Shown: positions 1,959-10,379 of the stretch, piece after piece
Layout: each line of letters opens with the position of its first letter
Position numbering within the stretch: position 1 is the first letter of the stretch
DNA from: Geitlerinema sp. PCC 7407
GTDB lineage: Bacteria; Cyanobacteriota; Cyanobacteriia; PCC-7407
Length of the DNA: 64,000 nt
Assembly (NCBI RefSeq): GCF_000317045.1
Contig: NC_019703.1
Location: forward strand, 794,501-858,500
Direction: 5' to 3'
Notes under the pieces: generated by a model
The model's input: only the letters and a program-made list of their open reading frames with translations
The model's database searches: none
What the model was told of the DNA's origin: nothing
Translations under genes and position numbers: made by a program

Positions 1959-3305
1959 ATGCTTCAGGAACCGAGCTTTCAGCCCATTAGCGATCGCGTC
2001 CCGCCCCAAAACATCGACGCGGAAGAGGCGATTCTGGGCGGCGTTCTGCTGGACCCAGAAGCCATTAGCCGAATTGCGGACATTCTCAATCCGGACGCTT
2101 TTTATATCAGCGCCCACCAGAATATCTATCGGTCCATGCTCATCCTCCACAGCCAGGGCAAGCCGACAGACCTGATGAGCGTCACCGCCTGGCTGCAGGA
2201 CAACAACCGCCTCGACAAAGTCGGCGGCCAGAGCCGCCTAGCCCAGCTCGTCGACCGCACCATCAGCGCCGTCAACATCGACCAGTACGCCAATCTGGTC
2301 ATGGACAAGTACCTCCGGCGCAAGCTGATCCGAGTGGGCCACGAAATCGCTGAACTAGGCTTTGAAACCAGCTCCCCCATCGAGAAAGTCCTCGATGACT
2401 CTGAGCAAAAAGTTTTTAGCATCACCCAAGATCGGCCCCAGAGCGGCCTGACCGCCACCGCCGATATTCTGACCACGACCTTCTCGGAGATCGAGAGCCG
2501 CTTTACGGGAACCGCGCTGTCGGGGCTGCCCTGCAACTTCTACGATCTCGACGCCATGACCCAGGGCTTCCAGCGATCGGACCTGGTGATCGTCGCGGGG
2601 CGTCCATCCATGGGCAAAACCAGCTTTTGTCTCCAGGTGGGCCGCAACATCGCCGGTATCCACCGCTTGCCCGTGGCGGTCTACAGCCTGGAAATGTCGA
2701 AGGAGCAGCTGATCTATCGTCTGCTCTCCAGCGAGGCCAAAATCGAAAGCAGCCGTCTCCGCTCGGGCCGAATCAGCCAGGACGAGTGGGAGCCCCTGGG
2801 CCACGCCATCAGCGTGCTGTCGGAGCTGCCGATTTTCATCGATGACACGCCCAACATCAGCGTGACGGAGATGCGATCGCGGGCGCGCCGCCTCCAGGCT
2901 GAGCAGGGGGGCGCTTTGGGCATGATCATCATCGACTATCTCCAGCTGATGGAGGGCGGCGGCGACAACCGCGTGCAGGAACTGTCAAAAATTACGCGGG
3001 CGCTCAAGGGTCTGGCGCGGGAGCTGAGCGTGCCGGTGGTGGCCCTGTCCCAGCTCAGCCGAAACGTGGAGTCTCGCACCAACAAGCGCCCGATGATGTC
3101 TGACCTGCGGGAGAGCGGCAGTATCGAGCAAGACGCGGACTTGATCATGATGATCTACCGCGACGAGTACTATAACCCCGACACGCCCGATCGCGGGGTG
3201 GCGGAGGTGATCATCACCAAGCACCGGAACGGTCCGGTGGGCACGGTGCGCTTCCTCTTTGAGCCGCAGTTCACCAACTTCCTTAACCTCAAGAGCACCC
3301 ACTAG
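1959..3305 (+). CDS. dnaB: Replicative DNA helicase DnaB
   Basis: The 448-residue product is the hexameric helicase that unwinds DNA at the fork and interacts with DnaG primase. The N-terminal DnaB_N domain starts with VPPQNIDAEEAILGG. The RecA-like C-terminal domain has Walker A GRPSMGKT at residues 214-221 and Walker B IIIDYLQL at 323-330. I start it at the ATG at 1959; an upstream in-frame ATG at 1902 would add 19 residues foreign to the family. The LRESGSIEQD segment, interrupted by an intein in Synechocystis PCC 6803 DnaB, is continuous here. A strong terminator follows at 3376-3426. Confidence 0.97.
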   Translation: MLQEPSFQPISDRVPPQNIDAEEAILGGVLLDPEAISRIADILNPDAFYISAHQNIYRSMLILHSQGKPTDLMSVTAWLQDNNRLDKVGGQSRLAQLVDRTISAVNIDQYANLVMDKYLRRKLIRVGHEIAELGFETSSPIEKVLDDSEQKVFSITQDRPQSGLTATADILTTTFSEIESRFTGTALSGLPCNFYDLDAMTQGFQRSDLVIVAGRPSMGKTSFCLQVGRNIAGIHRLPVAVYSLEMSKEQLIYRLLSSEAKIESSRLRSGRISQDEWEPLGHAISVLSELPIFIDDTPNISVTEMRSRARRLQAEQGGALGMIIIDYLQLMEGGGDNRVQELSKITRALKGLARELSVPVVALSQLSRNVESRTNKRPMMSDLRESGSIEQDADLIMMIYRDEYYNPDTPDRGVAEVIITKHRNGPVGTVRFLFEPQFTNFLNLKSTH

Positions 3306-3375
3306 GGGCGATCTCCGATGGTGTAGCGCGGCTAACAGTCTGCGAATAAAAGCTTTGTATCTTAAATAATTTGCT

Positions 3376-3426
3376 CTGCGCGATCGCCTCCGTAATTGTT
3401 TTGAGTGAGGCGATCGCGCAGTTTTT
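3376..3426 (+). terminator. HIP1-containing terminator of dnaB
   Basis: A perfect 15-bp stem (3376-3390 with 3407-3421) encloses a 16-nt loop and is followed by five T residues. Each arm contains a complete GCGATCGC octamer. It sits about 70 bp after the dnaB stop codon. Confidence 0.85.
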
Positions 3427-3488
3427 GTATGAGGCTTGGGATAAGAGGCGATCGCCCAAGCTAACTAAAAAACAGGATTATTAAGTCG

Positions 3489-3536
3489 GTATTAATTGAT
3501 ACTTTGCCTAGCCATTTAACTAGTATTAATTAATAC
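3489..3536. promoter_or_regulatory. Pair of near-identical 14-bp palindromes, operator-like
   Basis: GTATTAATTAATAC at 3523-3536 is a perfect palindrome, and GTATTAATTGATAC at 3489-3502 differs at one position. The repeat period is 34 bp, close to three helical turns, so dimers bound at both would lie on about the same face of the helix. The two sites could also pair with each other as a long hairpin. The pair lies about 300 bp before the membrane gene at 3835. Its role as a repressor or activator site is inference. Confidence 0.45.
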
Positions 3537-3834
3537 CTTACAAGTGAAAAATACGGAAAATATGAACGTTTAGAAAGCGTTTCTCAGAGCCTCAAACTCT
3601 TGCCTGACTGCGCTGCTAAAGCTCCAGCAAAATCTGTCCGCTGCAAGAAAATCCATAATAATTTTGTGTCTTTCTATAATTTTCTCTTAAACTATAAATA
3701 ATCTTGGGGATATCCTGAAAATGCAGGCTCTTGTACCCGAGCTATGCCAGGGCGATCGCCTTGAAACATGGGTCCAGCGCTGTGTGGGTTAGCCCCTGAC
3801 GCCAGCGCACTCCTTCTTTTTCTAGCCCTCAACC

Positions 3835-4587
3835 ATGCTTTCTATTTCTCCCCGCCGCCTAACCAAGTTTTTGAGCTTTGTCGTTCTAGGCCTCCTTGGA
3901 GCGAGTTTAGTTAGTCAATTTTTCACGGCTATTTATGGTTGTGAAACAGGCTTTATTTGCTCCCTGGCTAAGTTCGTAAATGTCGATCGAGAAAAAAATT
4001 TGCCGTCCCTTTATTCGACTTTGACGCTGGTGCTATGCGCCCTACTCTTGGCCATGATTGCGCTGCAAAAGCGAGCCGAGGGCGATCGCGATCGCCATCA
4101 TTGGACAGGACTTGCTGGCATCTTTTTGTTCTTGGGAATGGATGAAGCTTTGAGCTTCCACGAAAAGATAGACAAGCTGATCAAAGGGGTTGTGAATACC
4201 ACCGGCATTTTTCACTACGCTTGGCTGCTGCCCGCTCTAGCTGGCGTCGTGATTGTCCTGGGATTCTACCAGCCGTTTTGGCAGCGCCTCCCCCAGCAGA
4301 GCCGCCGCCTTGTCCTGGCAGCCCTGGCGACCTTTCTCAGCGGCGCCGTCGGGATGGAGATGCTGGCGGGTCTCTACGTCTCCTACGCTCAGCAGTGGAA
4401 CCGCTTGCTCTGGGCAATGATGACCCTGATCGAAGAGGGTCTCGAAATGGCAGGCGTGCTGATTTTGATCTATGCGCTGCTGTCCTACATGGCGAACTAT
4501 GCGCAGGAAGTGCGAATTCGCGTGGGCGATCGCCCTGCTTTGGCCCTAGATGCGGCTCCCGCGTCTCCCTACACAAATAGCCGCTAA
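3835..4587 (+). CDS. Polytopic membrane protein, tandem paralog 1
   Basis: I do not recognise a named family for this 250-residue protein. By eye it has about six hydrophobic helices (near residues 12-32, 60-77, 91-105, 126-147, 158-181 and 190-218) with short polar ends. Conserved polar residues sit in or next to the helices: D103, E104, H109 and E110 (DEALSFHE), H127, E175, and E200, E201 and E204 (IEEGLE). Together they could form a metal or proton site. C36 and C42 form a short loop pair shared with the neighbour. The next gene encodes a clear paralog. Upstream are a TATAAT box and, further out, the palindrome pair. Enzyme or transporter function is unknown. Confidence 0.85.
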   Translation: MLSISPRRLTKFLSFVVLGLLGASLVSQFFTAIYGCETGFICSLAKFVNVDREKNLPSLYSTLTLVLCALLLAMIALQKRAEGDRDRHHWTGLAGIFLFLGMDEALSFHEKIDKLIKGVVNTTGIFHYAWLLPALAGVVIVLGFYQPFWQRLPQQSRRLVLAALATFLSGAVGMEMLAGLYVSYAQQWNRLLWAMMTLIEEGLEMAGVLILIYALLSYMANYAQEVRIRVGDRPALALDAAPASPYTNSR

Positions 4588-4888
4588 AACATCAGCCCGA
4601 TCGCCTAAAAAACGTCATTCATTTAAGCAAATTTGCCGACCAAAAATTCTCGCCTCGATACTTTTTTTAAGTGGTTTCGAGAAAATTTCTTGCTGTAAAA
4701 AACTTCATCATTAATTTGCGAGTTTCTATAATCTCCTCTTAAATAGTTCATAACCTTGTGGGTAATCTGAGGAGTGAGGTTCTCAGCCCTGGAACGCCGC
4801 CTAGCGAACTGATGGTGTGTCAGCTTAGCGCTTTGCTTGCTGGGTCCTTGACCTCAGCTCAATACCCATTCCACCCGGCCACTCAACG

Positions 4889-5629
4889 ATGCTTTCTATT
4901 TCTCCCCGCCGCTTAGTCAAGTTCTTGAGTTTTGTGATTTTAGGTCTCTTGGGAGCTAGCTTCATTAGTCAGTCATTGACTGCGTTTTATGGCTGCGAGC
5001 CGGGTGCGGCCTGTTTGGTGGCGAAGATTTTTGATGTGAATCGCGAGAAAAATCTCCCGACGCTCTACTCAACTTTATCGCTGCTGTTGTGCGCTGGACT
5101 GACCACCTTAATCGCGCTCAAAAAGGGAACTGAGGGCGATCGCTACCGGCACTACTGGACTGGCTTAGCAGGCATTTTTCTGTTTCTGGGGCTCGATGAA
5201 GGTCTGAGCATCCATGAAAAAATCGGCCGACCTGTGAAGAGTGTGGTCGAGACGACCGGCATTTTTCACTATGCTTGGCTGCTGCCGGCTTTGCTGGGCG
5301 TGACTGTGGTGATGGCTCTCTATATTCCCTTCTTCCGGCACCTGCCCCAAAAGATTCAGCGCCTGATCTGGCTGGCTATGGCTGCCTACCTAGGAGGCGC
5401 TTTGGGGATGGAAATGGTTGCGGGCCTCTACCTGTCCTCCACCCAGCAGATGAATCCCATGATTTGGGCCGTGATGACGCTGATTGAGGAAGGTCTAGAG
5501 ATGCTGGGGGTGCTGTTCTTGATCCGGGCGCTGCTGTCCTATATGTCTGAGTACACGCGGGAAGTCCGGATTTGCGTGGGCGATCGCCCTTCTCTAGCCC
5601 TAGAGTCTTCAGCGCCGCTGCACGAATAA
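4889..5629 (+). CDS. Polytopic membrane protein, tandem paralog 2
   Basis: This 246-residue protein matches the product of the preceding gene along its whole length, by eye about two thirds identical. The start MLSISPRRL and the DEGLSIHE, HYAWLLP, GMEMVAGLY and TLIEEGLE segments are all kept. The Cys pair (C36, C42) is also shared. The central polar residues survive while loops differ, so both copies look functional rather than one decaying. A TATAAT at 4727-4732 lies about the same distance from its ATG as in copy 1, suggesting separate transcription of the two genes. A strong bidirectional terminator follows at 5642-5678. Function is unknown. Confidence 0.85.
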   Translation: MLSISPRRLVKFLSFVILGLLGASFISQSLTAFYGCEPGAACLVAKIFDVNREKNLPTLYSTLSLLLCAGLTTLIALKKGTEGDRYRHYWTGLAGIFLFLGLDEGLSIHEKIGRPVKSVVETTGIFHYAWLLPALLGVTVVMALYIPFFRHLPQKIQRLIWLAMAAYLGGALGMEMVAGLYLSSTQQMNPMIWAVMTLIEEGLEMLGVLFLIRALLSYMSEYTREVRICVGDRPSLALESSAPLHE

Positions 5630-5641
5630 GCGCGCGACTCA

Positions 5642-5678
5642 AAACCAAAAAGCCCCCAATTTGGGGGCTTTTTGGTTT
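5642..5678. terminator. Bidirectional terminator
   Basis: A near-perfect inverted repeat has arms running AAACCAAAAAGCCCCC and back, with A-runs and T-runs on either side. It can stop transcription from the rightward membrane gene and the leftward FKBP gene, which converge here. Confidence 0.9.
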
Positions 5679-5691
5679 CTTGGGGGTTACC

Positions 5692-6249
5692 TTAGCTGAT
5701 CTTGAGCAGCTCTACGTCGAAAATCAGCGTGGCGTTCGGCGGAATGACGCCACCAGCGCCGCGAGACCCGTAGGCCAGATCCGCTGGAATAATCAGCTTG
5801 CGCCGGCCGCCAACCTGCATCGAGCCGACCCCTTCATCCCAGCCCTTGATCACCTGGCCAACCCCGATGCGGAAGGAGAAGGGCCGACCGCGATCGCGCG
5901 AGCTATCAAAAACCTTGCCGTTGGTCAGCGTACCGGTGTAGTGAACGGTGACCGTTTGGCCCTTGCTGGGCGTTGCGCCGGTGCCCGGAACCAGCTCCAC
6001 ATACTGCAAGCCGGAGTCCGTGGTGATGACCTCTTCGTCTTCGGTGACGACGGGCTTGGGCATCAGGGCCTCGGCACCCGGTGCTTGGGCAATCACGGCG
6101 GTTTCAGCGGCGATCGCCTGGGACGAAGGGGCAGCCGTATCGAGGTTGGCGGCGATCGCGCGATCGCGCCCACTGCCCACAATCAACGTAACCACCAACG
6201 CAATGCAGCAGGTCAACATCACCGCTGCGCTGATCAGAATTTCCCGCAA
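5692..6249 (-). CDS. FKBP-type peptidyl-prolyl cis-trans isomerase, membrane-anchored or exported
   Basis: The 185-residue protein catalyses cis-trans isomerisation of proline peptide bonds. Residues 5-25 form a hydrophobic signal or anchor segment, followed by an Ala/Ser/Pro-rich linker. The FKBP domain fills the C-terminal half, with [25 protein letters not shown] and [14 protein letters not shown] as the family signatures. The N-terminus points to the thylakoid lumen or periplasm, as for lumenal FKBPs of chloroplasts. The gene is monocistronic, ends at the shared terminator at 5642-5678, and begins about 120 bp from the next leftward gene. Confidence 0.92.
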
Positions 6250-7879: not shown

Positions 7880-9010
7880 CTAGGCCGCCGACGAGATCCG
7901 AGACGACGCCACCTGGCGATAAAACATCTGAAGTTGTCGAGTGGCTGCCTCCCAGCCCCAGCGCTCTGCCTCTCGGCGCGCATTCTGGCGCAGCGTCTCC
8001 CGAATCTCGGTCGAAGCCAGCAGGCGCTGAGTCGCGGCGATCGCGCCTCGCTCATCCCGCGGGTCAAACAAAAACCCGTTGACCCCGTCCTCCACAATGT
8101 CCGTGATGCCGCCCGAGCCCGCCGCCACCACCGGGCAGCCCGCCGCCATCGCCTCCAGCAGCACCAGCCCCAGCGTCTCCGTACTCGACGGAAACACAAA
8201 AGCATCCGCAGACGCGTAAGCCGTTGACAGCTCCTCGCCCATCAGATAGCCCACAAAATGGGTATTAGTGCCTGCGAAGAAGCGCATCAGCTCCTGGCGA
8301 TGAGGACCATCCCCCACCAGCGCCAAACGCGCATTGGGGATCGCCTCCAGCACCGGGCGAATTCGGTCAATTTCCTTCTCAGCGCCCAGGCGCCCGACAT
8401 ACAGCAGCAGCGGATCGTCCGGGTGACCCTGCGTCAGGCGATCGCGCATCGCCCGATTCGCCGGCTGCGGCCGAAACATCTCCGTATCAACCCCGCGCTG
8501 CCACACTTTCACCCGCTCAATGCCGTGGGAAGACAGCTCCTCCTGCATCGCGCTCGACGTACACAGATTCAGCTGAGCTTGATTGTGGCCCGCCTTCAGA
8601 AGCTCCCACAAAAACCCCTCCAGCATCCCCAGCCCATAGTGCTGAAGATACTTCGGCAAATGCGTATGGTAGGACGCCAGCAGCGGAATATCCAGCGTCT
8701 TGGCATAGTACAAACCCGCCAGACCCAGCACCGCTGGATTCACCACGTGAATCAAATCCGGCTGAAACAGCTCCAGCGACTGACGGATCGTCGGACGCGG
8801 AATTGCTAGCTTCAGCTCCGGGTAGAGCGGCAGCGGAAACCCAGGAATCCCCTCGATCTTCGCTCCCCGATACTCCCGGATCCCTCCCTCCGGCGCAAAC
8901 ACCAGCACCTGATCTCCTAGGCGCTGTAAATAGTCAACGGTGTGACGCAAGCGCGTCACAATCCCATCGACCTTGGGCAGAAACGTTTCGGTGAATAAGG
9001 CAATACGCAT
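7880..9010 (-). CDS. sqdX: Sulfoquinovosyltransferase SqdX (GT4 family)
   Basis: The 376-residue enzyme transfers sulfoquinovose from UDP-sulfoquinovose to diacylglycerol, the last step of sulfoquinovosyldiacylglycerol synthesis. It has two Rossmann-like halves. The N-terminal half begins MRIALFTETFLPKVDGIVTR. The C-terminal donor-binding half contains LLYVGRLGAEKEI and the GT4 E-x7-E motif in TETLGLVLLEAMAAG. I choose the ATG at 9010 rather than 9121, because family members start with MRIALF. It follows sqdB by about 185 bp on the same strand, so the two genes of the pathway are adjacent, which strengthens the call. The palindromic terminator at 7806-7833 follows. Confidence 0.92.
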   Translation of the reverse strand: MRIALFTETFLPKVDGIVTRLRHTVDYLQRLGDQVLVFAPEGGIREYRGAKIEGIPGFPLPLYPELKLAIPRPTIRQSLELFQPDLIHVVNPAVLGLAGLYYAKTLDIPLLASYHTHLPKYLQHYGLGMLEGFLWELLKAGHNQAQLNLCTSSAMQEELSSHGIERVKVWQRGVDTEMFRPQPANRAMRDRLTQGHPDDPLLLYVGRLGAEKEIDRIRPVLEAIPNARLALVGDGPHRQELMRFFAGTNTHFVGYLMGEELSTAYASADAFVFPSSTETLGLVLLEAMAAGCPVVAAGSGGITDIVEDGVNGFLFDPRDERGAIAATQRLLASTEIRETLRQNARREAERWGWEAATRQLQMFYRQVASSRISSAA

Positions 9011-9194
9011 ACCAACCGACGCAGTAGCAACAAGCTTCAGCAATTTCGACGAGCGTCCACACCGAACGTTCGCTTCCCTGCCCTCAGAATTGGGGTTTTT
9101 CGGCCTGTCTTCGTCTACCAAGCGGTAGATTTGTCAGGGCCTGCTGGGCAGGCATGATCCCAGCAGGCTGACCCAGTTCCAGGGCTCAAAGGCT

Positions 9195-10379
<1,185 letters not shown>

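Follow-up and report, generated by a model that had tools for sequence, protein, structure and literature searches.

The two adjacent genes described here are old tandem paralogs, both retained under purifying selection, and they belong to a bacteria-wide family of inner-membrane proteins with six transmembrane (TM) helices, one that none of the libraries we searched contains. The duplication of the two copies is in itself ordinary, and it is the uncatalogued family that constitutes the point of interest. We tentatively propose, as a possibility rather than a probability, that these proteins are metal-dependent membrane enzymes that act at the periplasmic face on a glycan (lipid-linked or on the cell surface) or on a lipid. 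In such an enzyme, the near-invariant Asp, Glu and His residues of TM3, TM5 and TM6, together with E53, would hold either a single divalent metal ion or a pair of them, and this metal site would be the active site, open to the periplasmic face; the substrate would probably be a lipid-linked or surface glycan, or else a membrane lipid used in making such a glycan. A widespread family with a near-invariant polar site and a confident predicted fold, which is nonetheless missing from Pfam and NCBIfam, is a good hunting ground for unknown chemistry, and should it prove to be a metalloenzyme acting in glycan or lipid chemistry, a step of envelope assembly that has gone unrecognised would be filled.

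The host is the cyanobacterium Geitlerinema sp. PCC 7407, whose genome of 4,681,111 bases lies on one contig, and the window, by which we mean the whole stretch of 64,000 nucleotides that was analysed, holds 159 occurrences of GCGATCGC. Copy A, a six-TM membrane protein of 250 aa, is encoded by an open reading frame (ORF) at 3835-4587 on the + strand, and its paralog, copy B (246 aa), by an ORF at 4889-5629 on the same strand. The initial annotation had described two adjacent genes alike over their full length, and this description holds, as both ORFs are real and residues 1-241 align gap-free at 67% identity (E=7e-115). Substitutions between the copies at codon positions 1, 2 and 3 number 72, 29 and 121, respectively, with a dS of ~1.5, a dN of 0.23 and a dN/dS of 0.15, and these values indicate that the duplication is old and that both copies are under purifying selection. 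A FastTree phylogeny built from 106 homologs groups copy A with copy B as sisters (local support 1.0), and nearest to the pair are L004 and then L005-L007, which places the duplication at some point after the split from the L004-L007 lineages. The dating that had been suggested as a check on these genes points, through the dS, to an old rather than a recent event. The same genome also carries a third, distant paralog (L003, C1:4284295-4285023) with 33% identity. We also observed that the first 24 coding bases are identical in the two copies (3835-3858 and 4889-4912), with synonymous sites differing at ~65% overall, which possibly reflects selection on translation initiation. Other tandem or near-tandem pairs of family members were seen elsewhere in cyanobacteria and in one Bacteroidia genome (L054, L056, L059, L062, L068; G531:C115:17784-19613; G1007:C1:193811-195216), and in the pairs of the Trichodesmium/Okeania group the partners look like two different subfamilies.

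That a segment upstream of the two genes was duplicated as well had also been claimed, and local alignment bears this out over somewhat longer intervals than first described, namely 3629-3731 ahead of copy A and 4682-4783 ahead of copy B (both + strand), with a score of 37, whereas 1000 dinucleotide shuffles reached no more than 17. The TATAAT noted in both segments is indeed there, at 3675-3680 and 4727-4732, 155 bp and 157 bp before the respective ATG. Within these segments, a 21-bp core (TTTCTATAATNTYCTCTTAAA) has exact matches, and in a genome scan allowing <=2 mismatches it was found at the two upstream segments only, the next-best genomic site being a single one with 3 mismatches; a regulon reading of the core was rejected, as there is no third genomic site at <=2 mismatches. 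A sigma-70 scan gave no two-hexamer promoter at the upstream segments, leaving TATAAT with no -35 partner there. Because the core is found at both sites and no -35 hexamer scores, a promoter common to both copies is plausible but unproven. The rest of the leader (3731-3834 and 4783-4888) is ~60% alike, which is near chance for a gapped alignment. The idea that both copies may be regulated alike has the common upstream core as its basis. An Rfam search of 3300-5720 gave no match.

Family members were found in 65 of 291 cyanobacterial genomes of a class-wide sample and, in equally class-wide samples with the centre genome counted, in 10 of 229 gammaproteobacterial, 10 of 240 alphaproteobacterial and 5 of 247 Bacteroidia genomes, these last three frequencies amounting to ~2-4% of genomes. 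A scan of GTDB species genomes added relatives in Chloroflexota, Acidobacteria, Planctomycetota, Nitrospirae, Rokubacteria, Gemmatimonadota, Spirochaetes, Deltaproteobacteria and others. Where plasmid records annotate a gene at the match, they label it "hypothetical protein". Among phages, one record derived from human fecal samples (MT835496.1:125191-125661, hit H16) encodes part of a family protein at 31% identity, unannotated there.

The polar residues of the family are conserved to a striking degree. In an alignment of 168 unique homologs from many phyla (copy A numbering), D103 is kept in 99%, E104 in 96% (D in 3%), H109 and E110 in 99% each, E175 in 97% (D in 2.5%), E200 in 99%, and E201 and E204 in 100%. 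E53 (98%), W90 (98%) and W130 (100%) join this invariant set, beyond the residues listed in the initial annotation, and two glycines, G170 (95%) and G207 (96%), are also conserved. In copy A, DE-x4-HE (codons 103-110) lies at 4141-4164, at the outer end of TM3, the invariant Glu of TM5 (codon 175) at 4357-4359, and EE-x2-E of TM6 (codons 200-204) at 4432-4446; through the gap-free alignment, the same codons of copy B fall at 5195-5218, 5411-5413 and 5486-5500 (all + strand). All the residues that had been named as shared by the two copies, H127 included, are in fact found in both. Across the family, DE-x4-HE, E175 and EE-x2-E stand as proposed and H127 does not: position 127 is Tyr in 56% and His in 12% of the 168 homologs, and being Tyr in most of them, it is not part of the site. 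The proposal of an active or metal site was to fall if most homologs lacked the residues concerned, an objection that does not arise, since eight of them (D103, E104, H109, E110, E175, E200, E201 and E204) are 96-100% conserved in these homologs. Even the very distant gamma- and alphaproteobacterial members retain D-[DE]-x4-H-E and EE-x2-[EK]. Two very distant members (L220 and L232) keep DE-x4-HE and carry EE-x2-K in place of EE-x2-E, and they possibly form a separate subfamily.

An AlphaFold2 (AF2) model of copy A (pLDDT 89.6, pTM 0.84) and one of a gammaproteobacterial homolog built from a separate alignment (pLDDT 94.5, pTM 0.90) predict the same six long helices, which in copy A span residues 6-34, 56-81, 87-106/108-117, 131-144/146-151, 154-184 and 190-222, with TM3 kinked between the DE and HE pairs and E53 located just ahead of TM2. 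Counts of Lys and Arg place the N-terminus and the loops L2 and L4 on the cytosolic side. Mean-field covariation on 166 sequences (effective number 144) agrees with such an alternating topology, in that the top 40 inter-helix covarying pairs have a mean depth difference of 7.2 Å versus 15.0 Å expected, no random draw being as low in 5000, and of 14.4 Å in a parallel-topology control; E53-H109 is among the strongest pairs. Measured from the cytosolic helix ends, D103 lies at a depth of 24 Å, E104 at 25.5, H109 at 33, E110 at 34.5, E175 at 31.5, E200 at 33, E201 at 31.5 and E204 at 27 Å. These values support a placement of the Asp, Glu and His residues of TM3, TM5 and TM6 at a common depth within the outer membrane half, where they would share a single pocket of the six-helix bundle, the evidence for the pocket consisting of helix ends, covariation and charge bias, that is, of helix positions rather than side-chain distances. 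Of the clustering that the initial annotation had anticipated, a common depth is seen for D103, E104, H109, E110, E175, E200 and E204, with H127 outside the site. Near-invariant residues of the ligand type at one membrane depth are what a metal-dependent membrane enzyme would be expected to show.

We call the family new in the sense that it has no match in Pfam, NCBIfam, PHROGs, PADLOC or the PDB, by sequence and by fold, or among the described systems to which it was compared; the earlier remark that the two proteins fit no known family has thus withstood profile searches. Pfam, NCBIfam, PHROGs and PADLOC returned only sub-threshold and inconsistent matches, those to DUF373, DUF4131, Frag1 and Anthrone_oxy being weak, limited to a few members and attributable to hydrophobic-helix similarity. 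Profile searches of PDB sequences gave no family match, a hit to EmrE (E=0.05 over 45 residues) being rejected, and a literature search on the motif names returned no relevant paper. Foldseek searches with the AF2 models against the PDB and the viral BFVD gave nothing at E<=0.001; the top PDB matches were rhodopsin/GPCR bundles (E of roughly 0.5-1 and TM-scores no higher than about 0.5, neither of them significant), which were rejected as generic bundles together with YetJ and SatP. It is somewhat doubtful that we are looking at a new class of small intramembrane metalloenzymes with its own fold and a carboxylate-rich, periplasm-facing site (DE-x4-HE, E and EE-x2-E), present in many phyla and serving, at least in part, for the assembly or modification of surface glycans. 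Doubtful to about the same degree is that the family belongs to a known superfamily that our searches would not recognise, visible for instance only in AlphaFold DB, InterPro or COG, an explanation that overlaps with the other functional readings: Foldseek against the PDB does miss families with no solved member, but profile searches of Pfam, NCBIfam and PDB sequences came back empty, and neither of the two good models matched a fold in the PDB.

The glycan or lipid substrate suggested for the putative metalloenzyme derives from the gene neighbourhoods and fusions of a minority of members. Genes for glycan assembly (glycosyltransferases, Wzc, Wza, sugar transferase, DegT and similar) occur within 4 genes either side at 14 of 53 non-cyanobacterial loci and at 0 of 29 control stretches drawn at random from genomes with family members (p=0.0015) or, counted by gene, in 24 of 380 versus 0 of 231 (p=1.3e-5), p-values that are optimistic because the glycan seeds were in part drawn from loci of the family itself (with self-matches left out) and because a number of the loci are related to each other. 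An independent Pfam count over 135 neighbours also has glycosyltransferases, sugar epimerases, sugar transferase and DegT at the top. Plasmid loci beside glycan genes were found in Deinococcus ficus, D. taeanensis, Paracoccus marcusii and Parasedimentitalea, and a GT39-like (PMT) gene lies upstream of the family gene in the Trichodesmium/Okeania group and Xenococcus and, by cluster, also in Aphanothece. Members near polysaccharide clusters, the plasmid-borne ones included, open the family to gene-deletion tests. Glycan genes are missing from the vicinity of about three quarters of the non-cyanobacterial loci, and around the closest relatives of the window copies the flanking genes are unrelated and include none of the glycan type. 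No conserved operon partner was found in the clade of the window copies, the neighbours of L209 being unlike those of L210-L212 or of the window, and both copies stand alone in Geitlerinema sp. PCC 7407. Farther along the window, at 7880-10346 on the - strand, are two genes, one for a glycosyltransferase of the GT4 type and one like a nucleotide-sugar epimerase, that, judging by eye, we take to resemble sulfolipid sqdX and sqdB. Two adjacent genes upstream of four related Nostocales members (L035, L037, L038 and L064), presumably of the flavodiiron type as recognised by eye, were set aside as probably local synteny only. Among fusions, most of the large extensions in frame with the N-terminus had the look of a non-coding frame read through (e.g. 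L149 and L152) and were discarded, those retained being of the GSPII type plus that of L159, whose Ig-like domain matches PF23166 (alpha-glucan water dikinase type) with an E of 6.6e-7, above the curated cut-off. L159 (G638:C12) is a 618-aa open frame with a signal-peptide-like start, the Ig-like domain and then the family domain, and a second, partial match to the family profile is seen at its residues 470-571.

The acidic cluster has no conserved Lys or Arg in its vicinity, a point in favour of a bound metal or cation, and eight acids plus one His with no basic partner within a six-helix bundle would also suit a cation channel or transporter, where the cluster would be a divalent-cation or proton site on an ion path. 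One relative, on a plasmid of Rhodobacter, does have P-type metal ATPases next to it, yet the loci inspected show no recurrence of metal-transport genes, the cluster occupies only the outer half with no conserved polar path to the cytosol seen, and no transporter or channel fold was matched, so that we regard this explanation as unlikely. Rather unlikely, too, is a metal-free acid/base enzyme, for example an intramembrane hydrolase of the glutamate type, or an isomerase or cyclase that is driven by protonation and acts on an isoprenoid lipid; EE-x2-E in a TM helix and the invariant W130 would suit general acid-base chemistry, as would the EE-x2-K of L220 and L232, but the Arg and second-His motifs of ABI/Rce1-type proteases and any Pfam match to those families are missing, and eight carboxylates exceed the needs of such sites. 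A role without catalysis, as an assembly factor, scaffold or sensor in machines of the envelope or of glycans, with the conserved residues binding Ca2+ or Mg2+ structurally, would fit the small size, the lack of a conserved operon partner in the clade of the window copies and the fusion to a GSPII domain that is regulatory in other proteins, but is quite improbable given that residue identities are fixed across phyla in spite of changing neighbours, which is more typical of chemistry.

Among known systems, the family may be compared with the membrane hydrolases of the CREST superfamily (PAQR receptors and alkaline ceramidases), which are likewise polytopic with conserved polar residues within the bundle and in which zinc is held by several His plus Asp or Ser. 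CREST proteins, however, have three conserved His and an Asp, whereas here only H109 is invariant, the other site residues are acids and position 127 is Tyr in most homologs; the CREST Pfam families gave no match and CREST is also outside the top 50 Foldseek PDB matches. The glutamate-type intramembrane proteases ABI/Rce1 and PrsW likewise have an EE motif in a TM helix, and neither their Pfam families nor their motifs match: ABI/Rce1 have EE-x3-R, F-x3-H and H-x3-N/D, whereas our family has EE-x2-E, with no conserved Arg at that spacing and one conserved His, and PrsW has EE-x2-K plus a conserved His, whereas E204 is invariant in the 168 sequences and EE-x2-K is seen in only the two very distant members. 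A likeness to a described system is seen in the N-terminal extension of members from Nostocales and some other cyanobacteria (L034, L035, L037, L038, L039, L046, L055, L064, L067, L128 and L136), which resembles the GSPII/MshEN domain of VcMshE (5htl) and Thermus PilF (6f8l) and is absent from the window copies. As in that domain, two LGxx.. motifs of 24 residues each are separated by a 5-residue spacer, and a profile of nine fused N-termini matches PilF (1.8e-23) and MshE (9.9e-10). Binding of c-di-GMP by this domain requires the Arg and Gln of both motifs (consensus, PMC12002112), positions that are mostly lost in the nine fused sequences (Arg I 0/9, Gln I 8/9, Arg II 3/9, Gln II 0/9). The fused GSPII domain would be cytosolic, in agreement with the topology proposed here for the family.
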